A stretch of 64,000 bases of DNA, taken from NCBI GenBank assembly GCA_012932865.1, contig SAXG01000058.1, positions 1-64,000 on the forward strand, in the 5' to 3' direction. The notes under the pieces are model-generated. The model was not told the origin of the DNA. It saw only the letters and a list, made by a program, of their open reading frames with translations, and did no database searches. Source of the stretch: Amylostereum areolatum (taxonomy: Eukaryota; Basidiomycota; Agaricomycetes; Russulales; Stereaceae). This document shows, one piece after another, positions 2,833-51,824 of the stretch; the stretch's first letter is position 1, and each line of letters opens with the position of its first letter. Made by a program: the position numbers and the translations under genes.

Positions 2833-3369
2833 TGTTAAGGACGGTCCTTATCACGTGACAAGCGGCTCAGGCTACAGTGCTTACGTGGATGAGAGGTGGG
2901 ATCAGGTGATCCAGACGTCTTAGTTATACGAAGTTAGAGGTCGATAAGCGAAGCAGTAAGTCTTCACGGAAGACTTAGGCGAGCTTTCGACTTAGTTACT
3001 TTAGGCTCTCTTTCGTATGCTTTAAGAGGAGGTTCTATTTAGAACAGTCCTGTATTTACAAAGAGAACGAGCTGGGGAATAGCGCGTTCGTTGAGCCTCC
3101 TTTTATAGGAAAGGAGGTTGAGTAAATATATGTACATTCGGCGACGGTTGCATCAAGTATCTACGGAGACGAACTGTGGCACCATCGAGGCTATGCCGTT
3201 GGGTCGGTGACGATCTATGGCACCGTCGAGGCTATGCCGTCGAGACGGTGATGATCTGTGGCAGCGTCGTTGAGACGGTTACGAACTGGGTACGGTCGTA
3301 ATCCGTCATTTAGCGACGTCCTTCCTAGTAAGGAAGTGGAAAATGAAATACCTTGGGCAAGTTGTAACA
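2833..3369 (-). repeat. element A copy 1, 3' LTR
   Basis: 537-bp LTR with TGTTA/TAACA ends. On the minus strand a TATAAAA box lies at 3107-3101 inside a short palindrome (CCTCC...GGAGG, 3096-3117). The U3 side (about 3165-3300) holds three to four imperfect copies of a roughly 45-bp unit of the type GTGGCACCRTCGAGGCTATG. This end also encodes the last 21 residues of accessory ORF5. Confidence 0.95.
3101..3107 (-). promoter_or_regulatory. LTR TATA box of element A
   Basis: TATAAAA on the minus strand, followed by GGAGG. The same box lies in the 5' LTR at 12806-12812, where it should drive the genomic RNA. No ATG occurs between the expected start site and the gag ATG. Confidence 0.65.
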
Positions 3370-3599
3370 CTATCCCCCTCTCTAGAATCTACGTCCCGTA
3401 GATTCCTGAATCGGAGTGGTTCTAGAGGAATGTCTTGAACGTGTTGTCGATCGTTCGCTCTTTGCCATTGGAGAAGGAATATAGTTGATGCGAGGAAGGT
3501 GAGGATTGTGAGTCCTACGATAACGCCGATGACGGGGATGAGCCAACGTGGAGTGGGCGTATTGGAGATCACGAGATTGGGAGGTTGTGTTGATTGCAT
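3306..3599 (-). CDS. element A accessory ORF5: small single-pass membrane protein
   Basis: A 97-residue protein starting at the ATG at 3599. It has a short polar N-terminus, one strongly hydrophobic segment at about residues 19-45 (WLIPVIGVIVGLTILTFLA, then STIFLLQW), and a basic, polar C-terminal tail (QRANDRQHVQ), which predicts the tail on the cytosolic side. There is no cleavable signal peptide. The last 21 residues are encoded by the 3' LTR. The second copy of the element has the same ORF (50685-50975) with the hydrophobic segment kept. A TATA-like box lies 37 bp upstream (3642-3636). I know no family for it. An envelope-like or budding role is only a guess, since it is far smaller than a retroviral envelope protein. 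Confidence 0.7.
   Translation of the reverse strand: MQSTQPPNLVISNTPTPRWLIPVIGVIVGLTILTFLASTIFLLQWQRANDRQHVQDIPLEPLRFRNLRDVDSREGDSVTTCPRYFIFHFLTRKDVAK
3370..3384 (-). other. polypurine tract of element A
   Basis: AGAGAGGGGGATAG on the minus strand abuts the 3' LTR, the expected place of plus-strand priming. It is kept in the second copy (50746-50760). No clear tRNA primer site ending in TGG is visible at the 5' LTR edge. Confidence 0.75.
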
Positions 3600-3635
3600 C
3601 GTGCTTCTGGATTTGTCGCTTTCTGATGTTCACTC

Positions 3636-3642
3636 TTTTATA
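3636..3642 (-). promoter_or_regulatory. TATA-like box upstream of accessory ORF5
   Basis: TATAAAA (within GATATAAAAG) on the minus strand, 37 bp before the ORF5 ATG. The second copy has GATAAAAG at the same place (51018-51012). Confidence 0.5.
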
Positions 3643-3675
3643 TCTTTGTTCGGACCTCAGCGATAGAATTCTACT

Positions 3676-4059
3676 CTATCGCTTTAACAACGCCTCTACT
3701 ACTTTCAGGTCCTCTTCGTCTATCGTAGTAGCCCCTAACCGATGTCCTATCCTCGCTGTCGTCGCATGATCCGGGCTCTTGAACCGAGGTCCGCGTTTTC
3801 GGAAGAGTCCCTTGATGCCGCATCTTCCCTTCGACTCTTGCATGGCTTCTTCGTCTAGGCTTCTCGGCCTCTTCATGGCGTGAGCGACGTCCAGACGGCT
3901 TAGGAGTTCCGTGACTCGTTTGAGATGACGAAGGAGTTCTTCGTCTTGTGGGTCGGGCGTGGGAGTGCGCGAGAGGACGGGTGAAGGGGGAGGAGTGGTG
4001 GGAGGGGTACAGTCGGTGGTGGAGAGGTTGCGTGAGGACGAGGTGAGAGTAGAAGACAT
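3676..4059 (-). CDS. element A accessory ORF4: small basic protein
   Basis: A 127-residue protein from the ATG at 4059. The N-terminal third is Ser/Thr/Pro-rich (TPPTTPPPSPVLSRTPTPDP). The middle is a probable helix (DEELLRHLKRVTELLSRL). A basic patch follows (MKRPRSLDEE, LFRKRGPRFKSPDH), and the protein ends DLKVVEALLKR. The second copy keeps both halves but has a frameshift between them. Roughly 70-80 bp upstream lies CATAAAAG, a TATA-like box. I do not recognise a family. The basic composition suggests nucleic acid or membrane binding, which is inference. Confidence 0.6.
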   Translation of the reverse strand: MSSTLTSSSRNLSTTDCTPPTTPPPSPVLSRTPTPDPQDEELLRHLKRVTELLSRLDVAHAMKRPRSLDEEAMQESKGRCGIKGLFRKRGPRFKSPDHATTARIGHRLGATTIDEEDLKVVEALLKR

Positions 4060-4132
4060 TTTGGTAGGTTTGGGTGGTGCGAGTGGGTTTTGTTAGACGA
4101 TGTCTGAGGATGTCGTTGTCGCTGTGGCTTTC

Positions 4133-4140
4133 CTTTTATG
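4133..4140 (-). promoter_or_regulatory. TATA-like box upstream of accessory ORF4
   Basis: CATAAAAG on the minus strand, about 75 bp before the ORF4 ATG. The second copy has GGATAAAAAG at 51516-51507. The rest of 4060-4473 shows no ORF I can support. Confidence 0.4.
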
Positions 4141-4473
4141 CTTGCGATGTGGAGGGGCAATGATGTAATCATTGCCGTCAATCGTAAGCGGGAATATCGT
4201 ACATAATCAAACACGAGTCGTAAGTAAGTGACGCGTCCAGCGCGTCGCAGGGAAATGTGCTAAAAGTTTCGCCTTCCTCATAGCGATAGGAACCCGTACA
4301 GTAGAGAAGTCCGAGGAAAATATGCGTGCGAGTGAGGGCGCAGTCCGTGATCAGTCCGAGGAGTATCGTAAGGAAAAATCGTAAAGGCGGTATGATGGGA
4401 GCGAGATGGAGACGTAAATGGTGATGGGAGAAATAGTCCGAGTGCGTGTGATGAGTGAAGTCTGTCCGCGTGC

Positions 4474-6388
4474 TTACCAGGGTTCCGGCCAGTGATCCTT
4501 CGACTCCTCCGCTTCCTGCAAGTCCCAATCTGCTTCCTTCCAGAAGAGATCGTCGACGCGCCAGGAGTGATTGAAGCGTGAGGGGGGTTCTCGTTGAGTG
4601 CGGAGCATTGCGTCCTCCCAATACAGCCACTGCTCAGTGGCGTGTTGGGCGGCTTCGTGCGTCAGGCTCTCGCGTCGCGTGAGGAATCCCAGAAGCTGCC
4701 TGTGGGCGCGGGCGGTAGCGTCGGTACGTCGGAGGTGGGGGTGGGACATCAGTGTTCCTGGACCGTAACTGATATCCGGACGGTTCGGGTGAGGGTGAGG
4801 AAGAGGAGTCTGTGGTCGGAGGGGATAGCAGGACCGAGATCGGGGGAAGTGAGGGGGAGCGCCCTTGCGACGGGGACAATCTCGGCGGAGATGGCCTCGC
4901 TTGCCGCATTTCCAGCAGCGTTTCCGCGGCTTCGAGGGAATCGCGTCCCACTTCTCTTGCGTCCACGTGGTTGGTTCGTCGTTCCATGGGTCCGAGGGAT
5001 TCTCGGCTACTTCCTTCGTTTGGTCGTTCGCCGGATCGTCCTCTTCCTCCACCGAATTGTTCAATTCCGTTGACTTGCACCCCTGTCTCCCGCGAGCTTG
5101 GATTTCCATCATCCTTTGGATTATCTCCTGGATCTTGTTGCAGTTCTTCATCGCCCGACTTATCGGGGAAGTCGACGTTTCTGATCCGCTTGAGTGATCT
5201 TCCGTCGGGGTCGACAGATTCATGTTTACGTCGCTGTGGGGTGACTCGGGGATCTTGGGCGACGGGATTTCGAGCGTAGTCGGGGTGCGGACGTGGGAAT
5301 GAGGGATAAGGGGCTGGGTTTCCGTGCCAAGGCATGGGAGCGTCGCTAGCAGATACCGGGAATGGAGTTGGCTGTCTAGGCACTGTGGACAGCCGAGGAG
5401 GTGTCCCAGGTATTGGTCGCGGATCGCTGGTCTGTTGTCTGGGCTTTGGGGGAGCCATGGGCTGTCCGGATAGCTCTCTTGGCAGGGGCTGTCTGAACTG
5501 CTCTCCGGGTAATCCATTTCCAGCGACGGGAGGCTGGACGGGGTTAAGCTGGGTGATGCCGGGGATGGGTAAGGATTCTGGTGGCGTAGGGGCGGTGACG
5601 GGTCGTGGAGGGGCGTTAGGAAGGAACGGGGGTCTGGTGAGGGTGGATGTGATGGGATCGGGTTGAACAGTGTAGCCCGGGGAGATGTGATGTCCATGGA
5701 AGATAAGGTCGATGTCGGGGCCTTCTTTCGAAGACATATGGGGAACTCCAGTAGTTTCCATTCGTCTTCGGAGGATTTCTCCTTCGTAGGCGGCGCGGAA
5801 GGTGTGTCTTTCCCAGTTAAGCCAGTTAACTCTGAGTCCGACTTCGGTAAGGAATCTCCGGAGTTCTGCGACGTTGAGTAAAGCCGCTGCGTTAGTTTCC
5901 TGAATCGTCGAAGGAGTTTGACCTCTCGTTCCTCCATTTCGGTCGAGAGCGTCATGTACCTCAAGTCCAGCTGATGGAGTTCTTCGTCGAGCATCTTGTT
6001 GTGGTCTTCCAGGATGCCCTGAACGTCGGCCGACTCCCTCCTGAGGTCGTCGATCCGTTGCCTGGCCTGCTCGATCGCTACTCCGGCTATCATGTGGGCT
6101 ATTTGATTCTCGAGTATCGGGGAATCGGGTGTTGGGACCTTCGTCGTTCCGGACGACGGGGATTGCGTTGGCACCTGTGAGGAATTCGGGTGCTTCAGTT
6201 AGGGTCCTTCTGTGTGCTTCCAATCGGCTTACCCCCTGTTCTTCCGTCTGGTCCTGACCTAGACGGAGGAGGTACTGACTTAATTGCGAAGATTGCTGCC
6301 AATCGAGCGATGAAGCAGTCTCCGCAGAGGGCGCGTTCCTGTTGAGAGTGGTGCACTTTGTTGCAGACGAGACGGATGCGGTCGACAT
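4474..6388 (-). CDS. element A accessory ORF3: coiled-coil and CCHC zinc-knuckle protein, spliced
   Basis: Model with two exons. Exon 1 runs from the ATG at 6388 to 6233 (52 residues, ending DQTEEQG). A 58-nt intron follows (6232-6175: GTAAGC donor, CTAAC branch site, CACAG acceptor). Exon 2 runs 6174-4474 (566 residues). The phases fit exactly. Exon 2 starts with a coiled coil (about residues 25-95: IDDLRRESADVQGILEDHNK and on), has a long Pro/Ser-rich middle, a CCHC zinc knuckle CWKCGKRGHLRRDC (about residues 420-433) and a Trp-rich tail ending DHWPEPW. The intron and both ends are kept in copy 2. In the middle (about 5250-5880) the -1 frame is the better conserved one, so the true product may switch frame or two proteins may overlap. 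The function is unknown; a second, gag-like RNA-binding protein is the simplest idea. Confidence 0.6.
4634..6388 (-). CDS. element A overlapping frame of ORF3 (unspliced reading, 584 codons)
   Basis: Starting from the same ATG at 6388, reading straight through the ORF3 intron stays open to a stop at 4634. The stretch LLNVAELRRFLTEVGLRVNW (about 5880-5810) and what follows (RRRMETTGVPHM, SPGYTVQPDP, and the basic QRRKHESVDPDGRSLKRIR) look like real protein. Between the two element copies six base changes in the VGLRVNW region are all silent in this frame and five of six alter the other frame. So this frame is coding at least there. Either an unspliced RNA makes this protein, or it is reached by a frameshift from the spliced frame. 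Confidence 0.5.
   Translation of the reverse strand: MSTASVSSATKCTTLNRNAPSAETASSLDWQQSSQLSQYLLRLGQDQTEEQGVSRLEAHRRTLTEAPEFLTGANAIPVVRNDEGPNTRFPDTRESNSPHDSRSSDRAGQATDRRPQEGVGRRSGHPGRPQQDARRRTPSAGLEVHDALDRNGGTRGQTPSTIQETNAAALLNVAELRRFLTEVGLRVNWLNWERHTFRAAYEGEILRRRMETTGVPHMSSKEGPDIDLIFHGHHISPGYTVQPDPITSTLTRPPFLPNAPPRPVTAPTPPESLPIPGITQLNPVQPPVAGNGLPGEQFRQPLPRELSGQPMAPPKPRQQTSDPRPIPGTPPRLSTVPRQPTPFPVSASDAPMPWHGNPAPYPSFPRPHPDYARNPVAQDPRVTPQRRKHESVDPDGRSLKRIRNVDFPDKSGDEELQQDPGDNPKDDGNPSSRETGVQVNGIEQFGGGRGRSGERPNEGSSRESLGPMERRTNHVDAREVGRDSLEAAETLLEMRQARPSPPRLSPSQGRSPSLPPISVLLSPPTTDSSSSPSPEPSGYQLRSRNTDVPPPPPTYRRYRPRPQAASGIPHATREPDARSRPTRH
6175..6232 (-). other. spliceosomal intron inside retrotransposon accessory ORF3
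   Basis: 58 nt with GTAAGC donor, CCCTAACTG branch region 20-30 nt from the acceptor, and CACAG acceptor. Copy 2 keeps all three signals (53605-53548, also 58 nt). Joining the flanks keeps an open frame. Confidence 0.65.
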
Positions 6389-6477
6389 TGTTGGGTGAGA
6401 TGGTTTGATTGGTAGAGGAGATGTTGGTTGCGTTCGGGGTGGTGGACATTGGTGATCTGTCTTGTTGAACCCGTAGG

Positions 6478-6486
6478 GTTTTTATC
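6478..6486 (-). promoter_or_regulatory. TATA-like box upstream of accessory ORF3
   Basis: GGATAAAAAC on the minus strand, about 95 bp before the ORF3 ATG at 6388 and about 30 bp before another ATG at 6449 in a different frame, which opens a short ORF with a CxxC (CGDC). It is kept in copy 2 at 53853-53861. Confidence 0.45.
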
Positions 6487-6531
6487 CCCCCCTTGTTGGC
6501 AGTGCATTCGCCTGAATGCTGTTGAGTCTCA

Positions 6532-9500
6532 CTAATGTCTCATTCTCGTCTTTCGTTTCTTTCGTCTTGTTGGTCTTCGTTCTCGCTGCGTCGCGTCGGT
6601 TTCGTCGCGATCAGTGGTTTCTGTGTTGGTATCTTTGATTGGCTGTGGTGGCAACTTCGGTGCCTTGGGGTTGTTTCGATGGAACTCTGCGATTGCATCT
6701 TTTGATCCCTCTAGATTAGATGCTGGTTCCCATGTGTTACCGGAGTCTGGGTATCCTTTCCATTTCACGAAGTAATGTAGCGGTTCTGAATATCGTTTGT
6801 CTAATTTTGAGGCTACTATCGTTTCTAGTTCGTAGAGTTCTTCGTCGTTTACTAGTTCTGGAGGTGGTCTTTCGTAAGCTTCGCCGTATTGTTCTGTTTC
6901 TTTGAATGGAATCAACAATGCTGCGTGGAATACTGGATGTATTTTCCACTTCGTTGGTAGTTCTAGACGGTAGGTTACCGGTCCTATAACCTTTTCGATT
7001 TTGAATGGGCCGAATCGTTTCGGTGCTAGTTTGGTTTTTGGGTATACCGTGTTAAGGTTTTTTCCGTCTAACCATACTTGGTCGCCTTGTTTGAGTTGAT
7101 TTCTTAGCGTGAACGTTTGATCATGCTGCATTTTCATTAATTTAGCAGCTATCTTCAGGCTTGCTTCTGCGTTGTCCCATGCGTTCTTAAGGTTCTTTAT
7201 TCTTTCTTCGGCTGTCGGTATTCGCGGATCGGTTGGTATTGCCGGATTGAAAACCGGTTGATACCCGTGTAGGAGTTCGAATGGGGAAGCTTTCGTAGCT
7301 GAATGTTGTCTTATGTTGTGTGCAAATTCTGCTTTTGGTAGGAGTTTCGCCCAATTCGTTTGATCTCCGTTGCAGAATGCTCGAAGATATTGTTCTAATT
7401 CTTGATTCACTCTTTCTGTTTCGCCATCCGTTTGTGGATGATACGCTGTACTGAGTGATGAGATAACTCCGAGGCTTTCGCAGATTGATTGGAATACTTT
7501 GGATGCGAATTGAGGACCTCTGTCCGATATCATTCTTTTCCATAGTCCAAATCGTCTGTAAACGTTGTCGATCAGAAGATCGGCTGTTTCTTCTGCGTTG
7601 ATCGTCTTTAGGCACGGTGTGAATACTGCGGTCTTGGTGAACCTATCGACGACTACGTTGATCGAATCGAATCCATTGGAGATCGGAAGATCTGTAATGA
7701 AGTCTGATGTGATTGTTTCCCATGGTCGTTCTGGTATTTCCGTAGGTTGTAATGGGTGTTTCGCCGGATGCGTGACATTCTTCGTTGACTGGCATATGGG
7801 ACATCCTTGAACGTAATCTTTTACGAAGGAAATCATCTTTGGCCACCAAAAGTTTCTTTGTACTAGTTCTAGAGTTTTCATTTCGCCTGGATGTCCAATC
7901 GTTTCTAGATCGTGATGCGATTTTAGGATCATGCGCCTGAGTTCGAGATTCTGTGGTACGTAGATCTTTCCTTTTCTGATGATCAGATCATTCTCGAAGT
8001 TCCAATCTTCGATTCCTTTTGCGAGGGTGCGTGGTCCCGATCTTTTGATCGTATCTAACGCCGTCCAAACTTCATCATCTAGGTGTGAGAAGTTTCTTAG
8101 CTCTTTGAGGAGTTCTTTGTCTCCGACTGCTTCGACTGTTCCTCTTCCGGTGGCTCTAGCTCTGAAAACCGAAGGGTGAAGCAGGATGCGGTCGTCGTTG
8201 TCTGGAATGTCTTCCTTATGATCTGGTCTTCTAGAAAGTCCATCTGCCTTGTTTGTACTTCCTGGTTTGTGTACCAAGGTGTAGTCGAAACGGGACAGAT
8301 ACGAGCTCCATCGTGCTTGCCGTCGATTGAGTTTCTGAGCTGTTGTGAAATATTCTAGATTTTTATGATCTGTCCAGATTTCGACTTTGTGGTTCGCTCC
8401 TTCTAGATAGTGTCGCCAGTGTTCTAAGGCTTTCACTACTCCTAAGAGTTCTTTGTCGTATATCTCGTAATTTTGTTCCGCGGAAGATAGTGATTTGGAT
8501 AGGTACGCGACCGGATGCCATCTTTCGATCTCATCTGGCTGCGATAGGATGGCTCCGTACGCAAAATCGGAGGCGTCACTCTCTATGCGGAATGGTTTGT
8601 TTTCATCGGGCATGATTAAGATTGGGGACGATGTGAATTCTCGTTTCAGTCTTTCGAAGGTACGTTCACATTCGGCCGTCCAGTTCCATTCGTGGTCTTT
8701 CTTTGTGAGCTGGAATAGGGGTCTGGCGATCTTGGAATAGTCTTTGATGAAGCGTCGATAGAAATTTCCAAATCCGAGGAATGATTGGACTTCTTTTACT
8801 TTCCTCGGTGTGGGCCATTCGGCTAGTCCTTGGACTTTGACCGGATCCATCTGTACCTTGTTGTGCGTGATTATCACGCCTAGGTATTCGATCGATGGTT
8901 GTTCGAAGAAGCACTTCTCTGGTTTGAGGAATAGATCGTTCCGTTCTAGAAGTTGGAGGGCTTCTTTCATCAGTTTTCTATGTTCGTCGAGTGTTTCTGT
9001 GAATATCAGTATGTCATCCATATAGACCACTACTTTTCCGGTGTCTATTAATTCTTTGAACAGTGCGTTCATCATTGCTTGGAATGTTGCGGGTGAGTTG
9101 GTTAGTCCGAAGAACATTACCATTGGTTCGAAAAGGCCTCTGTTTGTTTTGAACGCAGCTTTCCATTGATCTCCTTCTTTGATCCGAACATTGTTGTATC
9201 CCCATCGGAGATCGAGCTTTGAAAAGATCTTAGCGCCTTTTAATTTGTCGATGAGATCTGAGATGAGTGGTATCGGGTATTCATTTTTGACCGTGATCGA
9301 GTTAAGATAGCGATAGTCCTGTACTGGTCGAAGAGATCCATCTTTCTTCTTGATAAAGAAGAAGGGCGATGATATCTCTGATTTTGATTCTCGGATGTAC
9401 CCTTTTCGTAGATGTTCGTCTATGAATGTGTCCAGTTCCTTCCGTTCTGGTACCGTCATTGGGTACACTTTGCAATTTCGAGGTTTCCATCCTTCAGTTA

Positions 9501-10419
9501 GGTCTATCGCGTGATCCCAAGGTCTGCTGATTGGGAAGCGTTCCGACGCTTTCTTTTCGAATACCTTATGATACTGTTTGTAACTAGATGGAATCATCTC
9601 GTCGAGTGTCTTCTTCTTCTCTCCTATGGCCGCTCTTTCTGCGAGTTCTTGTGCCTTGGTTGCTCTTGCTGTTATCCAAATACCGGGTTCGTTTGCTTCT
9701 TTTGCAATCGGCATCGTTTCTACGTCAGTTTTTCCATGGAACGTTCTGACTATCCTGATATCGGTGAGATCGGAGTTGGATTCGGGGTCTTCTTGTTCTT
9801 CTATCGTCGCGTGATGGTTGATCTTCTGTTCTTCGAATGATTGTAGAGAGTGTTCGTCTTTTCCTTGGACGATCATTGTTTTACTGGTAGTGAAGCACGT
9901 ACCTGGACATGTTTGTAGTGTAATCTGTCTCTTTCTCCAATCGATATGAGGATTGTGTTTCTTGAGCCAAGGGGTTCCTAAGATTACTTCGTCTCCTCCC
10001 AGGGCTGTGACGAACAATCCTAAGTTTTCGCGGTGAATTTCTCCGTTGATCCCTGCTATCGTCATTGGAAGGTACACTTTCTGTTTGATCTCTCCTAGAG
10101 TGTTCTTAGATCCATCAACGTTATATATCGGTATTGGCTTCTTCAGTTGGATCAGATTCATCTTGTGTTTTCGTACGAAATCTGGATGGATCAGGGTGCT
10201 GCTTGCTCCGCTATCTAGCAGTGCCTTTGCGGCGGCTTTACGGAACTTTCCATGAAACGTAACAGGTATATGAATTGACGGAGCGTGCGTTGCTCCATCT
10301 TGGTATGACCTTATATACACTGTTCTATTTACGTCATCTCTTGTGTCCTGCACAGGAGATCGATTTGAAAAGTTCATTGTCTGTGTCCTTTCAACAGCCG
10401 CGGTTGAAGGACGATTCAA
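6532..10419 (-). CDS. pol: element A copy 1 Pol polyprotein (PR-RT-RNaseH-INT-chromodomain)
   Basis: About 1295 codons, open, in the -1 frame relative to gag and overlapping its stop. Order: aspartic protease (LLDSGASSTLIH, residues 67-78), reverse transcriptase with KDGSLRPVQDYR and YMDDILIF (about 465), RNase H (ESDASDFAYGAILS, TDHKNLEYF), integrase with an HHCC zinc finger (HHDLETIGHPGEMKT to CPICQSTK), the DDE core ([29 protein letters not shown]), and a C-terminal chromodomain (FVKWKGYPDSGNTWEPASNL). That order and the chromodomain place it in the chromoviruses of Ty3/gypsy. There is no AUG at its start; it should be made as Gag-Pol. Confidence 0.95.
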   Translation of the reverse strand: MNRPSTAAVERTQTMNFSNRSPVQDTRDDVNRTVYIRSYQDGATHAPSIHIPVTFHGKFRKAAAKALLDSGASSTLIHPDFVRKHKMNLIQLKKPIPIYNVDGSKNTLGEIKQKVYLPMTIAGINGEIHRENLGLFVTALGGDEVILGTPWLKKHNPHIDWRKRQITLQTCPGTCFTTSKTMIVQGKDEHSLQSFEEQKINHHATIEEQEDPESNSDLTDIRIVRTFHGKTDVETMPIAKEANEPGIWITARATKAQELAERAAIGEKKKTLDEMIPSSYKQYHKVFEKKASERFPISRPWDHAIDLTEGWKPRNCKVYPMTVPERKELDTFIDEHLRKGYIRESKSEISSPFFFIKKKDGSLRPVQDYRYLNSITVKNEYPIPLISDLIDKLKGAKIFSKLDLRWGYNNVRIKEGDQWKAAFKTNRGLFEPMVMFFGLTNSPATFQAMMNALFKELIDTGKVVVYMDDILIFTETLDEHRKLMKEALQLLERNDLFLKPEKCFFEQPSIEYLGVIITHNKVQMDPVKVQGLAEWPTPRKVKEVQSFLGFGNFYRRFIKDYSKIARPLFQLTKKDHEWNWTAECERTFERLKREFTSSPILIMPDENKPFRIESDASDFAYGAILSQPDEIERWHPVAYLSKSLSSAEQNYEIYDKELLGVVKALEHWRHYLEGANHKVEIWTDHKNLEYFTTAQKLNRRQARWSSYLSRFDYTLVHKPGSTNKADGLSRRPDHKEDIPDNDDRILLHPSVFRARATGRGTVEAVGDKELLKELRNFSHLDDEVWTALDTIKRSGPRTLAKGIEDWNFENDLIIRKGKIYVPQNLELRRMILKSHHDLETIGHPGEMKTLELVQRNFWWPKMISFVKDYVQGCPICQSTKNVTHPAKHPLQPTEIPERPWETITSDFITDLPISNGFDSINVVVDRFTKTAVFTPCLKTINAEETADLLIDNVYRRFGLWKRMISDRGPQFASKVFQSICESLGVISSLSTAYHPQTDGETERVNQELEQYLRAFCNGDQTNWAKLLPKAEFAHNIRQHSATKASPFELLHGYQPVFNPAIPTDPRIPTAEERIKNLKNAWDNAEASLKIAAKLMKMQHDQTFTLRNQLKQGDQVWLDGKNLNTVYPKTKLAPKRFGPFKIEKVIGPVTYRLELPTKWKIHPVFHAALLIPFKETEQYGEAYERPPPELVNDEELYELETIVASKLDKRYSEPLHYFVKWKGYPDSGNTWEPASNLEGSKDAIAEFHRNNPKAPKLPPQPIKDTNTETTDRDETDATQRERRPTRRKKRKTRMRH

Positions 10420-11735
10420 AAACCCTGATTGTCTTTGAACATGTTGGCAGTGCGTGCGAACGTCTCACTGTCCATCTTGTTCACAAGCTTGGTGATCTGA
10501 TCAATCGGGGATTCTTCTTCTGTTAGATTCGCCGTTCGTGCATTGATCGTTGTTTGGGTACGTTTCTCTGGGCAGTTCCTGGAGATGTGTCCTGGCTTCC
10601 GGCAATAGAAGCATGATCCTGACTTCTGGAGTTCAGTACGTTCTTGCGGGGTAAGGCGTCTGAAGTTTCGGCCGTTGTTCCCTGTTTGTGCCGCTCTGGC
10701 GGTGGTCGCGTTTCCTTTATTCCCATTTCCTTTTCTGAATGGAATATATGTCTGTGGTTTCTTGTATAGGAGCGTGAGATCACTCGTCGGGTTCATTGGT
10801 CTCGTGTAATGTCGTTGGAACGCTTGCGCTTCTCTCCAGTTATTGTCAATGCGTAACGCGAGTTCGTACCATTCATCAATATCGTTCGAGATGTGGTCTC
10901 TCTTGAGGATCTCAACCACGATATCATTGCGCAGTCCTCTCTTGAATTGGTCGATTAGTGCCTTATGATCGTAACCTGCTTCCATGGCGTAGTCCCTGAA
11001 GATTGTAATATAATCTTTGGTTTCCATAGTCCCTTGTTCTAGGCGCTGTATATTGAATCTAGCGTCTCTTCCTGGGTCTATTTCTCCGAAGGTCTCTAAG
11101 AAGGCGTCGCGGAATGCCGTCCATGGGAGGTATACTTCTGGATCTAGACCGCGATCTCGTATCTTATCGATCTTACTTATTAAGAGGGACGCCCAGTGGA
11201 GGGCTGGTCCATCGGTGAGATGCGAGAGTACAAAGGTTATCTTACGCATGTTGGCTGCATACGCGTTGGGAAAGGCTATGAAGCGAAGTACGCATTGTTC
11301 TATGAACTTTGCTGCTTTCGCTCGATCTCTTCCGTCGTATACTCCCAGTGCGTTTAGTTTGAATCCTTTGTCCTTATCATCGGGTTTTGATCCGATTGTG
11401 CCTGTTCCTCCTGGTGGGGAATTCCCTGGTGGGTGCTTCGATTCTTTCGGAAGATCCGCGGTTGCTCCTCTCCCGAAGACGTAGTCTCTGACTTCTTTTC
11501 CCTTTTTGTTATTTATTGATTGGTTGGAGAGTGATGGTGATGGTGGCGTTAGCGTTCTCCATCTTATTGGGTCGGTCGTGCCAAGTCCTAGGGGGAATCG
11601 AGTCTCATGTCTCGGTTTCGCGGGATCGGCTGGTGTTGGAGTTGCAGGCGTCTGGCGCGGTATATTAGTCTCTCCAGGGGGAACATTGCTAAGTGTGGTG
11701 GCGGGGTTGGGTATCGAGGCGGCGGCGTCTCCCAT
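10416..11735 (-). CDS. gag: element A copy 1 Gag
   Basis: 439 residues from the ATG at 11735 to the TGA at 10416-10418. The N-terminal third is Pro/Ser-rich; the Ty3-type capsid region spans about residues 150-330 (TFVLSHLTDGPALHWASLLI, FLETFGEIDPGRDARF, and LIDQFKRGLRNDIV). One zinc knuckle, CFYCRKPGHISRNC, lies at about 375-388. The frame is open a further 266 codons upstream of this ATG without any other ATG (see the leader entry), so the real Gag may be longer. The gag stop is directly preceded by GGGTTTT. Confidence 0.93.
   Translation of the reverse strand: MGDAAASIPNPATTLSNVPPGETNIPRQTPATPTPADPAKPRHETRFPLGLGTTDPIRWRTLTPPSPSLSNQSINNKKGKEVRDYVFGRGATADLPKESKHPPGNSPPGGTGTIGSKPDDKDKGFKLNALGVYDGRDRAKAAKFIEQCVLRFIAFPNAYAANMRKITFVLSHLTDGPALHWASLLISKIDKIRDRGLDPEVYLPWTAFRDAFLETFGEIDPGRDARFNIQRLEQGTMETKDYITIFRDYAMEAGYDHKALIDQFKRGLRNDIVVEILKRDHISNDIDEWYELALRIDNNWREAQAFQRHYTRPMNPTSDLTLLYKKPQTYIPFRKGNGNKGNATTARAAQTGNNGRNFRRLTPQERTELQKSGSCFYCRKPGHISRNCPEKRTQTTINARTANLTEEESPIDQITKLVNKMDSETFARTANMFKDNQGF
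10419..10425 (-). promoter_or_regulatory. -1 ribosomal frameshift site, element A copy 1
   Basis: G GGT TTT in the gag frame, directly before the TGA. It fits the X XXY YYZ rule, and a -1 slip enters the pol frame. The same heptamer is at 57801-57807 in copy 2. Confidence 0.75.
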
Positions 11736-12537: not shown

Positions 12538-13074
12538 TGTTAAGGACGGTCCTTATCACGTGACAAGCGGCTCAGGCTACAGTGCTTACGTGGATGAGAG
12601 GTGGGATCAGGTGATCCAGACGTCTTAGTTATACGAAGTTAGAGGTCGATAAGCGAAGCAGTAAGTCTTCACGGAAGACTTAGGCGAGCTTTCGACTTAG
12701 TTACTTTAGGCTCTCTTTCGTATGCTTTAAGAGGAGGTTCTATTTAGAACAGTCCTGTATTTACAAAGAGAACGAGCTGGGGAATAGCGCGTTCGTTGAG
12801 CCTCCTTTTATAGGAAAGGAGGTTGAGTAAATATATGTACATTCGGCGACGGTTGCATCAAGTATCTACGGAGACGAACTGTGGCACCATCGAGGCTATG
12901 CCGTTGGGTCGGTGACGATCTATGGCACCATCGAGGCTATGCCGTCGAGACGGTGACGATCTGTGGCAGCGTCGTTGAGACGGTTACGAACTGGGTACGG
13001 TCGTAATCCGTCATTTAGCGACGTCCTTCCTAGTAAGGAAGTGGAAAATGAAATACCTTGGGCAAGTTGTAACA
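12538..13074 (-). repeat. element A copy 1, 5' LTR
   Basis: 537 bp, differing from the 3' LTR at two positions by eye (an A for G at about 12930 and a C for T at about 12957 in plus-strand terms). The TATA box is at 12806-12812. Confidence 0.95.
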
Positions 13075-13417: not shown

Positions 13418-13837
13418 TGTCACGGATCGCTCCATTTCTCTCTTCGTTTGCAGACCTCGTACACGCGACGTGTCACGGCACATGACTTTCCCTTGCATCA
13501 CATGCTTCAACGACGTCATTGCCCGGACTTCCGAGCGGGGTTCCGCATCCTTATCTATGACATCACTGCTCCGGACCTTCGTCCTCCGCCCCATGACTCC
13601 TTTCCTATTGTTCCCCCCACTCGCACCACTATCGCATCACATCGCACCATCGTTCCCACTTGTATATAAGGACAGTGTTTCTCCTCCCTTTTCCCTAGAC
13701 TGTCCATCTCGTCATACGGTACTGTAGCGCACGTTGCACTACCCTAGACCCCGGCACTCTTGAATCTATTTTCTTCTCGCTCCTCCCATCGTCGCGACTT
13801 AGGCGGTTCATCGGTCTCATAAACTGCGTTTCTGACA
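13418..13837 (+). repeat. element B copy 1, 5' LTR
   Basis: 420 bp, TGTCACGG to CTGACA. A TATA box, TATATAAG, lies at 13663-13670. Directly after the LTR comes CCTGGACAGTC; the TGG two bases in could start a primer site, but I cannot match it to a tRNA. Confidence 0.93.
13663..13670 (+). promoter_or_regulatory. LTR TATA box of element B
   Basis: TATATAAG in the 5' LTR, repeated in the 3' LTR at about 20337-20344. Confidence 0.65.
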
Positions 13838-14454
13838 CCTGGACAGTCTACCCCTACGCCTACCTCGCACCCCTCTCTCCATCTACCTCTGCCGTCTCTA
13901 CGACGTTAAAAACTCCCACCACGGACCTCCCGAACGCACCGGTTTTCCTCCCGTTCAACGGAAAGCCGATCACCCCCCGCGACGACGCACCACTCCCCTA
14001 CCCTTGGTCCGACGCCGTCACCGTCAACTGCCTCGTCCCCGTACAGAACCTCTGCAAGAAAGATCCCTGGACCGCGCATGGCCTCAACTTCCGCATCTTC
14101 GAGTGGAGGTGGCACAAGGATCACGGTACTGTCGTCCTCGCCCTATACGTCCGGATCACTACGTGCATCAACGTAGATCTCGAACGCCTTGAATTCACCC
14201 TCCACGCCCCCACCTACCACACATACCTCATCCAAGACGCCCCCAACCCGATCCTCCAAACCAGTTTCACCTCCGTTTCCCAGTTTAACCGCCGGACCCC
14301 CGAATCCACCCCGCCACCAGTCCTCCGTCCCACCATCAAGGGTAAGACCCTTCGTCGCCGCCACCACGAACATAAGATCCGCCAGGCAGTAAAAGCCGGC
14401 TACCTCACCAAGAAACTCCTCGGCCGTCGCCCCATCGCGGCGGACTTCTTCTAG
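13699..14454 (+). other. element B leader frame without AUG, ending in a conserved TAG
   Basis: One frame is open from 13699, close to the expected transcription start, to a TAG at 14452-14454. It has no ATG in that frame, and the whole leader to gag has only one ATG, out of frame at 14078. The predicted product looks real (FLPFNGKPITPRDDAPLPYP, LNFRIFEWRWHKDHG, RRRHHEHKIRQAVKAG). Copy 2 keeps the frame and the TAG (61811-61813). I do not recognise the domain. It may be a separate leader protein made from a non-AUG start, or part of Gag reached by readthrough. Confidence 0.5.
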
Positions 14455-15045
14455 ACCATCATCACGTCCTCCACAGCCCCTCGTCCCCCCACCCCGAACC
14501 TTCCCCCAGGCGTCTTTCGAGACTACTGTCCCGAAGAATACTATATCCTCACCTCGCAGCAGACTAAGGAATCCGTACGTTGGCTGCACGACGAACCAAA
14601 CCGGCAACGTCGAGACTGGTACTTCGACGACCGCGACGAACAACCCTACGTCGAAGAATCGGATTTTGCCACCGCTGCGGACGTTCTACAGCGCTTCCTG
14701 AACCCCCCTCCGACCCACTCGCCCCCACCCCGTCGACGTACTGTAATCGAAGTCCCAGAAGGGATCAACCACAACGACACAACTGGGAAGTGGTACGCCT
14801 ATAGACGAAACAAGAACGGAACCCCAGGACGATCAGTAGTTGAGTGGCAGCCCACTTCGTTCAGCCCCGTCCAAGATCACTGGTCGTGGCATCATAACCA
14901 GCAATTCCTCACCCCCGCCGACTTCCTTGTCGCAAAACAAGTTGAGGACGAAGTTGAAGAAGCAGAAGAACGCCGACAAGAAACCCTACGCCGCCTTGAT
15001 CAAGAACTCGCCCAATCCCTCACCGTCCCCCTCCCCTTCGACAAG
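14455..15045 (+). other. element B open N-terminal extension of Gag without AUG
   Basis: After the TAG at 14452 the same frame stays open into gag, again with no ATG (CPEEYYILTSQQTKESVRW, WYFDDRDEQPYVEESDF, GKWYAYRRNKNGTPGRSVVE). Differences to copy 2 are mostly at third positions, for example in YVEESDFATAAD, which indicates coding constraint. Copy 2 lacks two bases just after the TAG (near 61824), so leader and gag are not in one frame there. Confidence 0.5.
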
Positions 15046-16071
15046 ATGTCCGACGCCGAATCCAAACCTGCCGTCTCCAAGCGAGAGATCGGCCCCAAGC
15101 CAAAGCCATTCAAAGGCGATAGACGCGACACCCTCCGGTTCTCCCTCGAGCTCCGCATGTTCCTGCGCGTTAACAAGGATGTTTATGCCACAGATGACGC
15201 CAAGATGATGCTCCTCCTCAGCCTGATGGAGGACGACACGGCGAAAGCCTGGGCCACGCATCGCCGCATGGAACTCTTCGCCGATGAAGACGAGAAGGAA
15301 GACGCCGAAACCCTCGACCCCACGCCCCCAACACTCCACTATAACTCCTACAAAGAGCTCTTCGAGAGGTTTGGCAAAGACTTCGTGCCCGTCGATCCGA
15401 AGATAGAGGCTCAGCGCAAGATCAACGAGCTCGCAATGACCACCCGGGACGTCACTGACTTTATCACCAAGTTTGAGATGCTGGCAACCATGTCAGCGTA
15501 CGACGACGAGGCGCTAATCCACTTTTTCAAGAAGGGACTTCAGCGTGACCTCGGCAAGCAGGTGGCCCGGTCGTACCCGTTCCCCACCAAGCTCGCGGAG
15601 TGGAAGGAGCACGCCCGCCGCATCAACCACCAGTGGCTCGAAGAGAACCCGGAGAGGAAGAGCAGTCAGTCCAAGGGGGCTGTCGCGCTCACCTCGAACG
15701 GTTCGACCAACGACTCCTCGTCGCGCCGAGTCGGCGCCTTCACCAACACCTCGACCCGCCCTGCAAAGCTGACGGACGACGAGCGCGCAAAGATGATGCG
15801 TGAAGGCAAGTGCTTCATGTGTCGACAAGCCGGTCACGTCTCTCGTGACTGCCCCAACCGCGACTCGAGCGCGCGACGGGTGGGCGCAGTAGAGACTGGG
15901 TCCAAGGCCCCTCCCCTGCCGACGAACACGGCTCCGTCCACTGCGAAAGCAGCTCCCGACCCATCCAAAACCATCGCGGCGATCACTCGCCAGCTGAAGG
16001 ATCTGGACGCGGAAGGCAAGGAGCAGGCAGTAGCGCTGTTGAAGGACATCCTGGAATCGCAGGATTTTTGA
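15046..16071 (+). CDS. gag: element B copy 1 Gag
   Basis: 341 residues from the ATG at 15046. The capsid region (DTLRFSLELRMFLRVNKDVY, LLLSLMEDDTAKAWA, LIHFFKKGLQRDLGKQV) is followed by one zinc knuckle, CFMCRQAGHVSRDC (about 256-269), and a C-terminal helix ending LLKDILESQDF. The first ATG of the frame is at 15046, but the frame is open far upstream. The stop TGA (16069-16071) directly follows GGATTTT. Confidence 0.93.
   Translation: MSDAESKPAVSKREIGPKPKPFKGDRRDTLRFSLELRMFLRVNKDVYATDDAKMMLLLSLMEDDTAKAWATHRRMELFADEDEKEDAETLDPTPPTLHYNSYKELFERFGKDFVPVDPKIEAQRKINELAMTTRDVTDFITKFEMLATMSAYDDEALIHFFKKGLQRDLGKQVARSYPFPTKLAEWKEHARRINHQWLEENPERKSSQSKGAVALTSNGSTNDSSSRRVGAFTNTSTRPAKLTDDERAKMMREGKCFMCRQAGHVSRDCPNRDSSARRVGAVETGSKAPPLPTNTAPSTAKAAPDPSKTIAAITRQLKDLDAEGKEQAVALLKDILESQDF
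16062..16068 (+). promoter_or_regulatory. -1 ribosomal frameshift site, element B copy 1
   Basis: G GAT TTT in the gag frame, next to the TGA. GGAUUUU is a known -1 slippery heptamer of plant dianthoviruses. Copy 2 has the same at 63419-63425. Confidence 0.7.
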
Positions 16072-19000
16072 AACGCCCCCCAGTCACGTCGTCTGGTGGA
16101 GGCAAAGGACTTTTGGTATCATCGTCGAATCGTTTCGCTGTATTATCATCCATGCATACCTGTGAGCAATCGTATCCCCCGTGTTTGTATCTGTCTACTG
16201 TCACCAAGAACAGGCAAACACCATCGATCACGCTCAAAGTCAAGCTGATCGGACGAGTTACCAAAAGAGAAATCGACGCAGACGCGCTGCTTGATAGCGG
16301 CGCAGAAGGAATTATCCTGAACCGAAGCTTCGTTGAACGCAAGAAGCTCACCACAAGAAAACTAGAAAACCCGTTCCCCGTGCGTAATGTGGATGGCACC
16401 GAGAACGTCATGGGCTGGGTACGCGACACAACGACCCAGCGGATCCGGATATACTCGCAAGATTCAAAGGCATACCATGAGGAAGAGGCTGAGTTCTTCA
16501 TCACCGACATTGGCGATCATGACATGATCCTTGGAACAGACTGGCTCGACGAGCACAATCCCACCATAGACTGGCAACGAGACCGTGTTGACATGCTCCG
16601 CTGCCCTCCCTCGTGCACTCTGTCCAAACCTCCTGTGACGAACCTTGCAACCAAGCCACGGAAACCATCATCGGTCCAATCACAGCGTAAGGTTGAAGCA
16701 GGTAAAACCCCGAGGACACCTCTCGTCGTGGACGATCCCTTCCCAGAGCCGACATATGTGTCCTGGACCCCAGTCCCCACTTATGTTATTCCTGCACGCA
16801 GAGTCAAAGGTGTTCGCGTCCGCACGGTCCATCGCTCCCCTCTACCCGCACGACTCTTCACTGAAGACGACGACGAGCGGCCCATGGTATTCCGAGACTG
16901 GGAGATCAATGGACTACGCCGCGCCGGAATCCTCCCTGAAACCGATGGTCCTAATCCAGATGCAATACCCATCCGCGCAGGCTTTACAAAAGCGCAGGAG
17001 CTTGCAGAGCATTCAAAAGAGAATGCACGCCCGCAAACCTTTGAAGACTTAGTCCCCCCGCCGTACCGCGACTTTGCGCCTGTATTCGACAAGAAAACCT
17101 CCGAGCGACTTCCTGACCGACGACCATGGGACCATGCTATCGACATGAAAGACGGCTTTGAACCCAAACCGTGCAAGATCTACCCCCTCTCACCTTCCGA
17201 GCAGATCGAACTCGACACCTTCCTCGATGACCACCTGAAGAAGGGCTATATCCGCCCATCGAAGTCACCTCAGGCGAGTCCGTTCTTCTTTGTGAAGAAA
17301 AAGGATGGAAAGCTGCGTCCCGTACAGGACTATCGAGAATTAAACAAGGGCACTGTCAAGAATGAATACCCCTTGCCACTGATCTCTGAAATTGTCGACC
17401 GCCTCAAAGGTGCAAAGATCTTCTCCAAGATGGATGTTCGCTGGGGCTACAACAATGTCCGCATCAAGGAAGGCGACGAGTGGAAGGCTGCGTTCAAGAC
17501 GAATCGTGGTCTCTTCGAACCTACGGTGATGTTTTTTGGGCTTATGAACTCCCCTACAACATTTCAGGCAATGATGAATGAACTGTTCAAGGATCTCATC
17601 GACTCAGGCAAGGTCATCATCTACATGGACGACATCTTGGTGTTCACTCGCACCATGGACGAACACCGTGCCATAGTGCGGCAGGTTCTGCAGCGTTTGC
17701 AAGACAACGACCTCTTCCTCAAACCGGAGAAATGCGTCTTTGAGCAAGACTCTGTCGAATACCTCGGACTCATCATCTCGCACGACAAGATCGCTATGGA
17801 CCCCGTCAAGGTAGCAGGTATTCAGGACTGGCCGGCACCACGAACGGTCAAAGATGTGCAATCCTTCCTCGGCTTTGGCAACTTCTACCGACGTTTCATC
17901 AAGGACTTCTCCAAGGTTGCACGGCCCCTATTTGATCTGACAAAGAAGGACTGCACATGGGACTGGTCGACGGACTGCCAAACTGCGTTTGACGCACTGA
18001 AAGCTGCGTTTACTTCCTCCCCCGTCTTAGTCATGCCTGACCCAAAGAAGCCTTACCTCGTTGAAGTCGATGCCTCGGACTTTGCTACTGGAGGTATACT
18101 CTCGCAGAAAGGCGACGACGGTCACTGGCATCCAGTGGCGTATCTGTCCAAGGCCCTATCGGAACCGGAACGGAACTACGACATCTACGACAAGGAGCTG
18201 CTTGCGATCATCCGTGCGCTTGAAGCCTGGCGCCACTACCTCGAAGGCGCCCCCGACACCGTCGAAATCTGGACAGATCACAAGAACCTGGAGCACTTCA
18301 AGACGGCACAGAAGCTGAGCCGCCGACAGGCACGTTGGGCTCTATTCCTCACTCGATTTGACTTCTCGCTCGTTCATAAACCAGGAATTTCCCACCGCCC
18401 AGATCCAATGTCTCGACGACCCGATCACAAGGATGGTGTTGAAAACGACAACAAGGAACGCGTCTTGCTTGACCCCAAGTACTTCCAAGTACGCGCAACA
18501 AGGCCAGGAGCAGTAACCTCCCTCGGTGATGTCGAACTCCGACGACGTATCCGCGACTGCAAAACCAAGGACATCGAGGTCGTTCAAGCCCTGGACGCCA
18601 TCTTACGAAATGGACCACGTACACTCGTCAAGAACCTTCAAGAGTGGAACTACGAAGAAGGCCTGGTCCTGTTTAGAGGAAAGGTATATGTCCCTGCAGA
18701 TGACGAGTTGCGACGCGACATTGTCAAAATGTACCATGAATCGCCCCTGGCTGGACACCCCGGTCGCTTCAAGACTTACGAGCTTGTGAGTCGTGAATAT
18801 TGGTGGCCTGGCATGTCTGTCTTTGTCCGCGACTTTGTAGCAGGATGCGCAACCTGCCAGTCGACGAAGACACAGAGCAGCCGACGCCACGTCGACATGA
18901 TCCCAAACGAAGTACCCGATCGACCATTTGGCATCATCTCCACCGACTTCATCGTCGAACTCCCTGACTGCGAAGGCTATAACACCGTCAATGTCGTGGT

Positions 19001-20159: not shown

Positions 20160-20511
20160 CTTTCCCTTGCATCACATGCTTCAACGACGTCATTGCCCGG
20201 ACTTCCGAGCGGGGTTCCGCATCCTTATCTATGACATCACTGCTCCGGACCTTCGTCCTCCGCCCCATGACTCCTTTCCTATTGTTCCCCCCGCTCGCAC
20301 CACTATCGCATCACATCGCACCATCGTTCCCACTTGTATATAAGGACAGTGTTTCTCCTCCCTTTTCCCTAGACTGTCCATCTCGTCATACGGTACTGTA
20401 GCGCACGTTGCACTACCCTAGACCCCGGCACTCTCGAATCTATTTTCTTCTCGCTCCTCCCATCGTCGCGACTTAGGCGGTTCATCGGTCTCATAAACTG
20501 CGTTTCTGACA
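20092..20511 (+). repeat. element B copy 1, 3' LTR
   Basis: 420 bp, nearly identical to the 5' LTR (three differences by eye). Confidence 0.93.
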
Positions 20512-50204: not shown

Positions 50205-50745
50205 TGTTAAGGACGGTCCTTATCACGTGACAAGCGGCTCAGGCTACAGTATTCGTGTAGATGAGAGGTGGGATCAGGTGATCCAGACGTCTCGGTGATA
50301 CGAAGGTTGAGGTCGGTAAGCGAAGCAGTAAGTCTTCACGGAAGACTTAGGCGAGCTTTCGACTTAGTTACTTTGGGCTCTCTTTAGTATACTTAAGAGG
50401 AGGTTCTTTAGTTAGAACAGTCCTGTATTTACAAAGAGAACGAGCTGAGGAATGGCTCGTTCGATGAGCCTCCTTTTATAAGAAAGGAGGTCGAGTAAAT
50501 ATATGTACATTGAGCGACGGTCGCATCAAGTATCTACGGGGATGAGACTGTGGCACCGTCGCGGCTGTGCCGTCGAGACGGTGACGATCTGTGGCACTGT
50601 CGTCGGGACGGTGACAATCTGTGGCACTGTCGTTGTTGCGTCGTTGAGACGGTTACGAACTGGGGCACAGTCGTAATCCGTCGTTTAGCGACTGTCCTTC
50701 CTAATAAGGCAATGGAAAATGAAGTACCTTGGACAAGTTGTAACA
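50205..50745 (-). repeat. element A copy 2, left (3') LTR
   Basis: 541 bp, TGTTAAGG to TGTAACA, directly after the integrase-core gene. Confidence 0.92.
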
Positions 50746-50975
50746 CTATCCCCCTCTCTAGAATCTACGTCTCGTAGATTCCTGAATCGAAGCGGTTCTA
50801 GAGGGATCTCTTGAACATGCTGTCGATCGCTCGCTCTTCGCCATTGGAGGAGGAATATTGTTGATGCGAGGAAGGTGAGGATCGTAAGTCCTACGATGAT
50901 GCTGATGACGGCGATGAGCCAGCGTGGAGTGGGCGTATTGAAAATCGCGAGATCGGGCGACTGAGTGGGCTGCAT
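50685..50975 (-). CDS. element A copy 2 accessory ORF5 (membrane protein)
   Basis: 96 residues from the ATG at 50975 (MQPTQSPDLAIFNTPTPRWL). The hydrophobic segment VISIIVGLTILTFLASTIF is kept, and changes relative to copy 1 are conservative. The C-terminus again lies in the LTR and has drifted at the very end (LIRKDSR). Same unknown role as in copy 1. Confidence 0.65.
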   Translation of the reverse strand: MQPTQSPDLAIFNTPTPRWLIAVISIIVGLTILTFLASTIFLLQWRRASDRQHVQEIPLEPLRFRNLRDVDSREGDSVTTCPRYFIFHCLIRKDSR

Positions 50976-51044
50976 CACGCTTCTGAGTCCTCATGTTTTG
51001 ATGTTCACTCCTTTTATCCTTATCCGGAATCGAGCGATAGAATT

Positions 51045-51434
51045 CTATTCTACCGCTTCAGTAACGCCTCTACTACTTTTACGTCCTCTTCGTCCATCGT
51101 GGGAGACCCTAGTCGATGCCCTATCCTCGCCGTCGTCGCGTGGTCCGGGCTTTTGAACCGGGGTCCGTGCTTCCGGAAAATCCCTCTGACAGCCGCATCT
51201 TCCCTTCGATTCCCGCATGGCTTCTTCGTCAAGGCTTCTCGGCCTCTTCATGGCGCGAGCGACGTCCGGACGGCCTAGGAGTTCCGTGACTCTCTTGAGA
51301 TGACGAAGGAGTTCTTCGTCTTGTGGGTCGGGCGTGGGAGTGCGCGAGAGGACGGGCGAGGGAGGAGGAGTGGTAGGGGGAGTGTGGTCGGTGGTGGAGA
51401 GGTTGCGCGATGAGGAGGTGAGGGTGGAAGACAT
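51045..51434 (-). pseudogene. element A copy 2 accessory ORF4, frameshifted
   Basis: From the ATG at 51434 it reads as copy 1 up to RESKGRCG, then shifts frame. The proper end (FRKHGPRFKSPDHATTARI to VVEALLKR) continues in another frame to 51050. Confidence 0.65.
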
Positions 51435-51824
51435 TTGGTTGGTGTGGGTGGTGCGAGTGGGTTTGTTTAGACGATGTCTGAGGATGTTGTGGTCTTTGTA
51501 GCTTTCCTTTTTATCCTTACGATGCGGGGGGGGCAATGATGTAATCATTGCCAGCAATCGTAAGCGATGATTCGTACATAATCAAAACTGAGTCGTAAGC
51601 AGGCGACGCGTCCAGCGCGTCGCGGAGAGAATATCAAGCGTCTCGCCTTCCTCATAGCGATAGAAACCGGTATAGTAGAGAAGTCCGAGGAAAATATGCG
51701 TGCGGATGAGGGCGCAGTCCATGATTAGTCCGAGAAGTATCGTGACGATAGATGCGAGAGCGTAATGATGGGGGAAGAGAGAAAGTCCGAGTGCATGATG
51801 ATGGGTAAAAGTTCGTCCGCGTAC

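Follow-up and report, generated by a model that had tools for sequence, protein, structure and literature searches.

An accessory gene module with two overlapping frames behind pol in a chromovirus family of Amylostereum areolatum

Described systems and element A

According to the section on fungal chromoviruses of PMC2864245, which describes no extra domain other than dUTPase, most full-length fungal elements carry one or two frames (Gag, Pol). A figure legend there mentions an additional open reading frame (ORF) of unknown function in fungal elements, and some form of extra ORF in fungal chromoviruses is already in print (PMC2864245). In this study, we analyzed a stretch of 64,000 nucleotides (nt) from Amylostereum areolatum (assembly GCA_012932865.1, contig SAXG01000058.1, positions 1 to 64,000 of the forward strand), hereafter the window, which contains element A, a chromodomain Ty3/gypsy retrotransposon with long terminal repeats (LTRs). 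Element A resembles the fungal chromoviruses of that section in its gag-pol order, chromodomain, and polypurine tract, and differs from the typical ones in having four extra frames behind pol (PMC2864245).

Extra genes between pol and the 3' LTR have been described in other groups. According to the passages on the pX region of human T-cell leukemia virus (HTLV), tax and rex lie in overlapping sense frames (PMC8227390, PMC6714889), and Tax and Rex are made from one doubly spliced bicistronic mRNA (PMC6714889). Element A likewise has two selected overlapping sense-frame genes, X and Y, before the 3' LTR, a likeness of layout; unlike in HTLV, no env was found, an internal promoter is suggested, and splice and start use are predicted. 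The Cer1 element of Caenorhabditis elegans is described as encoding, from a spliced mRNA, the extra protein CERV, which has a Cys-rich candidate RNA-binding loop and is required for export of the unspliced genomic RNA (PMC10309623). Element A shares with Cer1 an extra LTR-retrotransposon protein from a (here predicted) spliced mRNA, whereas CERV, compared with X/Y by its description, is one protein for which three structured domains are predicted (PMC10309623).

The plant elements Retand and Grande are reported to have about 2.9-6.6 kb from pol to the 3' LTR with conserved extra ORFs, and gene23 of Grande has its own promoter (PMC11963269, PMC7264820). These ORFs are antisense, whereas those of element A are sense and two of them overlap (PMC11963269, PMC7264820). 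All selected frames found in element A were on the sense strand, unlike the Retand-type antisense ORF (TRP28), which was itself not searched for. In the LTR elements of bdelloid rotifers, pol is followed by extra ORFs, coiled-coil and membrane types among them, and the corresponding passages give one ORF3 per family and make no mention of overlap, in contrast to the overlapping pair of element A (PMC5408684). Boty-like elements of Botrytis, which are fungal, have one extra antisense gene, brtn, judging by the title of a reference cited in PMC7264820. Among the titles and abstracts listed by searches of the open-licence PubMed Central literature, none was on a fungal LTR element with overlapping accessory genes.

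Overlapping frames under selection

In element A, about 3.1 kb of accessory region separate pol from the 3' LTR. The results support well the presence of a real, element-borne module with at least four selected sense frames (X, Y, ORF3, and ORF4), of which X and Y overlap over about 1.5 kb. Positions marked q are counted on the sense strand of element A, where q1 corresponds to window position 6600 and counting runs down (window = 6601 - q). The features of the module are as follows:

6233..6449, minus strand: accessory exon 1, with ATG codons at 6449 (frame z) and 6388 (frame y), both frames possibly coding (conserved starts, phase of changes)
6175..6232, minus strand: predicted 58-nt intron, GTAAGC...CTAAC...CACAG (conserved splice signals)
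4634..6174, minus strand: frame Y, C-terminal part of the predicted protein P1 (selection clear at q721-900, weaker at q901-1080 and q1801-1905)
5522..5899, minus strand: Y core, the most conserved stretch of Y (alignment of copies)
4474..6174, minus strand: frame X, C-terminal part of the predicted protein P2, with coiled coil, CCHC zinc knuckle, and conserved C-terminus (Pfam, structure model)
3676..4059, minus strand: ORF3, a 127-aa basic protein (omega 0.31)
3306..3599, minus strand: ORF4, a single-pass membrane protein of 75-97 aa, constrained part about 3375-3599 (omega 0.51, hydropathy)
50644..53910, minus strand: copy B, the same region with frames damaged by small insertions (88.9% identical to A)

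Selection was assessed in 26 aligned copies, namely A, B, and 24 fetched ones (L026, which is B, was omitted); 22 of them came from the top of one DNA search and four (L030-L033) were chosen as diverged from among the X matches. Each minority base per column was counted as one event, the p-values ignore shared ancestry, and omega was computed against the expectation by mutation type. Copy B was excluded from the overlap counts (25 copies) and the X C-terminus, and included in the counts for ORF3, ORF4, and phase.

Variable sites were unevenly distributed over the codon phases, and the favoured phase shifted along the region. At q721-900 (changes by phase 10, 4, 34; p=1.4e-7) the free site was the third codon position of Y, and at q1261-1440 (36, 9, 22; p=2.8e-4) and q1968-2127 (30, 12, 7; p=1.7e-4) it was the third position of X. 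ORF3 (104, 43, 33) and ORF4 (27, 71, 44) were also uneven, while the non-coding gap at q2128-2541, used as a control, was even (71, 66, 82; p=0.40). The unevenness was not significant at q507-720, q901-990, q991-1080, q1441-1620, and q1621-1800. Omega gave a consistent picture, with Y at 0.17 and X at 2.27 in q721-900, X at 0.45 and Y at 1.29 in q427-720, and X at 0.45-0.63 across q427-720 and q1081-1440. It was 0.55 for X and 0.71 for Y at q901-1080, and neither frame was constrained at q1441-1620 (1.07 and 1.38). The values for ORF3 (0.31), ORF4 (0.51), and the X C-terminus (0.21) compare with 0.84, 0.95, and 1.15 in the three frames of the control gap and with 1.27-2.07 in the wrong frames of ORF3 and ORF4. 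Additionally, stop-creating changes in q427-1905 were depleted about fourfold in both overlapping frames (X 4 vs 15.5 expected, Y 5 vs 18.7 expected); they were depleted in ORF4 (2 vs 7.2) and not in ORF3 (2 vs 3.0).

The alternation of constraint along the overlap would also fit a single protein, if hidden introns or frameshifts moved the reading from X into Y at about q720 and returned it to X at about q1080, so that nothing is dual-coded. In line with this, q721-900 is constrained in Y only, q427-720 and q1081-1440 mainly in X, and a CTAAC motif resembling a branch site lies close to each switch point (q706, q982). We nevertheless consider it improbable, given that Y stays open through the X-type segments (q427-720 and q1081-1620; 5 stop changes vs 15.5 expected), that both frames tend to constraint in q901-1080, that the candidate GT/AG pairs checked by hand fail to restore the needed frame, and that two switches cannot be explained by one intron. 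X is likewise open through the Y segment, which carries little weight as only 1.5 stop changes are expected there.

The proteins of the module differ in how far they can be recognized. X matches zf-CCHC in Pfam (E=1.7e-5), and its profile search against the PDB returned zinc knuckles, including nucleocapsid knuckles (best E=4.2e-4). Its AlphaFold model has a helix at residues 19-105, with block means of the predicted local distance difference test (pLDDT) of 80 to 93 over residues 31-100. The Y core, with a mean column identity of 96% across 19 different proteins, had no match in Pfam, a large protein database, or PDB profiles. No relatives of X or Y were found at E<=0.001 among 5.8 billion proteins, whereas the same database gave 2,011 relatives of pol among 7,988 scored; relatives of ORF3 and ORF4 were looked for by Pfam only. 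No relatives of X, pol, or the Y core were found in a collection of viral contigs, which is uninformative here since pol was missed as well. The P1 head (frame z) has a conserved C-x3-HH-x8-C-x2-C motif, which may be zinc-binding-like. Codon usage is closer to that of gag-pol in Y than in X (r 0.54 vs 0.33), a difference too weak to lean on for the idea that X is the younger frame of the pair.

ORF4 contains one hydrophobic stretch (best 19-residue Kyte-Doolittle mean 2.41, windows stepped by three). Its last codons overlap the polypurine tract and the open frame continues into the LTR, where no frame-specific pattern was seen for the ORF4 frame (q3241-3330, past the LTR start). Among the genome matches listed, ORF4 copies fell into two sequence classes, one at least 80% and the other about 55-75% identical to A, which could reflect module exchange or fast evolution. 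The location after pol and the single membrane span of ORF4 would agree with an envelope-type gene set in an infectious, errantivirus-like element. Such a set is most improbable here, as X, Y, z, ORF3, and ORF4 had no Pfam match to an envelope family at E<=1 and ORF4 is constrained over only about 75 residues, which to our knowledge is too few for the known types of fusion protein.

The module is widespread in the genome (57 Mb searched, 182 contigs). A DNA search with the accessory region gave at least 42 matches (40 of 389 candidates scored), and protein searches found at least 77 copies of X, at least 75 of the whole Y, and at least 150 each of three Y pieces, ORF3, ORF4, and the pol end. 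An accessory frame lay within 2 kb downstream of 140 of the 150 best-scoring pol ends, and four of the other 10 had accessory pieces downstream (C126:339015, C39:22041, C1:1462696, and C124:323399). Most listed copies were stop-free, namely 68 of 77 for X, 133 of 150 for the Y piece before the core, 136 of 150 for the Y core (5522-5866), 143 of 150 for ORF3, 139 of 150 for ORF4 (3373-3599), and 118 of 150 for the pol end. Among 150 listed copies each, identity was at least 83% in the Y core and fell to 63% in the Y frame just before it; one copy in both lists (C120:180610-182343) had 87% and 64%, respectively.

The whole Y frame as in A was stop-free in 32 of the 75 listed copies. The last Y piece had one TGA in many listed copies, and among the 26 aligned copies Y ended at q1929, q1937, or q1965 unless cut earlier. 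Early Y stops were considered as a sign of decay and this was rejected, the TGA being read as a moving natural end, with its position taken from part of the copies. Stops in listed Y copies were nearly all TGA (17 of 17 stop-bearing copies for the piece before the Y core), as CGA-to-TGA changes would give, a pattern suggestive of C-to-T mutation acting on repeats that are methylated or targeted.

These data also bear on the possibility of a captured host sequence or non-coding filler with chance open frames. It would be in keeping with the lack of X and Y relatives and with the general frequency of long chance frames in GC-rich DNA, but it is hardly credible in view of the frame-specific selection in X, Y, ORF3, and ORF4 and of the module behind those 140 of 150 pol ends. 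In particular, chance frames were rejected by the selection tests on X, the Y core, ORF3, and ORF4. All 77 listed X matches in the genome were at least 80% identical, and a distant host paralogue of X may lie outside them.

The initial annotation had placed a coiled-coil plus CCHC protein, a small basic protein, and a single-pass membrane protein after pol and recognized them in a second copy. We confirmed all three (4474-6174, 3676-4059, and 3306-3599) and the second copy, B, and the view that these are the element's own extra genes agrees with the 140 of 150 pol ends and the purifying selection, with no sign of a captured host gene. Its list was incomplete, as it missed the overlapping Y frame (a second long frame opened by ATG 6388, 584 codons, 4634-6388). 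Its span of 3306 to 6388 covers the right region, although the module begins at 6449 and 3306-3369 lies inside the LTR. The proposed likeness to retroviral layout proved closer than thought in the overlapping gene pair, but it is one of layout only and no envelope gene was found. The copies did not prove to lack the ORFs, dN/dS was not near 1 in all of them, and the region did not turn out to be a single captured host sequence.

Expression of the overlapping pair

Frame X has no start codon at its 5' end. By the predicted splice, the reading from ATG 6449 would continue into Y and that from ATG 6388 into X, and we examined the signals of this splice in 44 copies, that is, the 26 aligned copies without B (because of its insertions) and 20 short diverged loci without L047 (unaligned upstream). 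GTAAGC was kept in 43, CCTAAC in 40, and CACAG in all 44. Both ATG codons were kept in 44 of 44 copies, with C at position -3 of the first (6449) and A or G at position -3 of the second (6388) in every copy. A purine at -3 marks a strong start, and a weak first start is often bypassed. Changes at q213-368 by phase (9, 24, 24) were as expected of two overlapping coding frames; frame-by-frame tests were weak there (z, p=0.050; y, p=0.098), and z was constrained at q213-325 (omega 0.50, p=0.015). A single splice from a donor at q326 to X (101 nt) was also considered and rejected, as this donor is altered in L037, L038, L039, and L047. Under the predicted splice, 19 of the 26 copies had a full-length P1, 21 a full-length P2, and 16 both; B was counted among the 19 though its insertions swap its frames, and L016 and L020 had an early end in both proteins.

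Candidate promoter-like boxes, whose roles are proposed, precede the accessory starts:

6478..6499, minus strand: purine run and ATAAAA box just after pol, a candidate ancestral polypurine tract and possible accessory-mRNA promoter
4134..4139, minus strand: ATAAAA box about 80 nt before ORF3, inexact in some copies
3636..3642, minus strand: TATAAAA box some 40 nt upstream of ORF4; other copies have TATAAAG or GATAAAAGG

Of the four ATAAAA boxes in A, three sit in the three gaps before accessory starts (exon 1, ORF3, and ORF4; 576 of 9,168 nt), and the fourth is in pol.

On this sequence evidence, we consider it probable that the chromovirus family carries an accessory gene module in which the X and Y products come from one short spliced mRNA with two starts. 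This mRNA, started at an internal TATA-like box, would encode the first two proteins. Ribosomes starting at the weak ATG 6449 would read P1, consisting of the zinc-binding-like head and Y, and those skipping it would start at the strong ATG 6388 and read P2, with its coiled coil, CCHC knuckle, and conserved tail. ORF3 and ORF4 would each be served by their own box. P2 might oligomerise via its coil and bind the element RNA via its knuckle, thereby controlling how the unspliced genomic RNA is exported, spliced, or packaged; P1 and ORF3 might act as regulators in the nucleus, with ORF4 as a small helper at the membrane. Tentatively, and at less than an even chance, the whole may be a convergent pX-like region without an envelope. 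In that reading, leaky scanning on a bicistronic spliced mRNA would give two proteins that are dual-coded over some 1.5-1.7 kb and that, where the copy is undamaged, measure about 563-595 and 608-632 residues. The two small genes would have promoters of their own, and together the module would decide what happens to the intron-containing genomic RNA.

Several observations speak against parts of this scheme. In the last 43 nt of predicted exon 1 (q326-368), z was unconstrained (omega 1.86 on 10 changes), where P1 would need constraint, and the constraint on frame y in exon 1 was weak (p=0.098). The intron interior, with the splice signals excluded, was not clearly free of y constraint (omega 0.46, p=0.068); part of Y may therefore be translated from unspliced RNA. 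In L011, L024, L030, L031, and L032, which include the two copies with the lowest identities to A, a stop truncates P1 while P2 is intact; therefore, P1 may be dispensable or its core may be reached by a different route. ATAAAA boxes were no more numerous than expected by chance (4 vs 4.36 expected), the motif was selected once the sequence had been inspected, and it is inexact in some copies (L018 differs before ORF3, L032 before exon 1). AlphaFold was reliable for the X coil only, the Y core model being poor (pLDDT 44.8), and the functions given for P2, P1, ORF3, and ORF4, drawn by analogy with Rex and CERV, are those we regard as most likely.

Some of these observations fit a different route, in which the X/Y pair is real but the 58-nt intron is not removed, Y is read from 6388 straight through, z is a separate 85-aa protein, and X starts from the ATG at q508. 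In most of 46 copies no stop interrupts Y within the intron, where the weak y constraint noted above is seen, z is unconstrained at q326-368, and the q508 ATG is kept in 44 of 44 copies. Moreover, all 46 aligned copies retain the predicted intron, whereas copies made from spliced genomic RNA would lack it. Against this route stand the conservation of donor, branch, and acceptor (43, 40, and 44 of 44), an in-frame TGA of Y inside the intron in four of 46 copies (L013, L023, L027, and L034), and the conservation of X residues before q508 (e.g., ILExQIA), although the X constraint there is not significant (p=0.093). We judge it rather unlikely. If the intron of the preferred two-start spliced mRNA is a true one, the lack of intronless copies means that the element copies unspliced RNA or makes the spliced mRNA separately.

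Origin of the module and significance of the family

The remaining features of element A and a comparison element in the window are as follows:

2833-13074, minus strand: element A, chromodomain Ty3/gypsy (LTRs and domain order)
12538..13074, minus strand: 5' LTR, 537 bp, TG...CA (two mismatches vs the 3' LTR)
10416..11735, minus strand: gag, Retrotrans_gag with CCHC knuckle (Pfam)
6532..10419, minus strand: pol, with protease, reverse transcriptase (RT), RNase H, integrase, and chromodomain (Pfam)
3370..3383, minus strand: polypurine tract AGAGAGGGGGATAG, directly before the 3' LTR (LTR boundary)
2833..3369, minus strand: 3' LTR, 537 bp (LTR comparison)
13418..20507, plus strand: element C, a related chromovirus without accessory region (repeat and RT comparison)

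Element A is flanked on both sides by the 5-bp target duplication GCAGC, and its LTRs differ at two positions over 537 bp; it is a recent insertion from a high-copy fungal chromovirus family. Pfam places in pol the protease at residues 62-171, RT at 356-517, RNase H at 605-711, H2C2 at 826-881, rve at 897-995, and chromo at 1196-1248, and this order of protease, RT, RNase H, and integrase with a C-terminal chromodomain is that of a chromovirus. Tandem 41-bp units within LTRs (3164-3269, 12869-12974, and 21531-21677) form a possible regulatory array. A diverged LTR at 21199-21749 (92% over 300 nt), without an attached element in the repeat list, is probably a solo LTR.

The initial annotation suggested that element A may be an undescribed lineage, which is not supported in the RT sense. 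RT-RNase H of A is 71% identical to that of element C and 73% to the best of 120 listed database relatives, and A forms its own branch in an RT tree built from database hits, few of them named and none a named reference clade. By its sequence, the RT of element A is ordinary, and so are its gag and pol in general. The named pol relatives among the matches listed are from Lyophyllum, Sparassis, and Dentipellis, all Agaricomycetes. In element C, the gag and pol frames are long and open (341 and 1363 aa, respectively), and the LTRs measure 416 bp. Its RT-RNase H is 94% identical to the database protein P0095 and also close to a protein from Dentipellis fragilis, and a second copy of its gag frame lies at the window end (62403-63428).

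Element C has its tract, AAAGGGGGGGTAA, at the pol end and immediately adjacent to its LTR. Behind the pol of element A there is AAGGGGGGGATAAAA, which resembles this tract of C, and the true tract of A lies 3.1 kb further on. This old-looking tract together with the displaced true one suggests, as the simplest reading, that the module was gained between the old tract and the LTR.

Viruses supply the best-known cases of long overlapping genes. An overlap of this length in a retrotransposon, with at least 75 to 150 genome copies per protein search, is a natural data set for two proteins evolving on the same bases. The finding suggests that an element need not possess an envelope for an accessory gene region to arise in it, and it bears on intron retention by retroelements, as none of the 46 aligned copies is without the predicted intron, which a spliced template would lose. 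If the proposed scheme is true, a fungal LTR retrotransposon would have independently evolved a retrovirus-like regulatory region, convergent with pX and with the envelope absent from the scheme.

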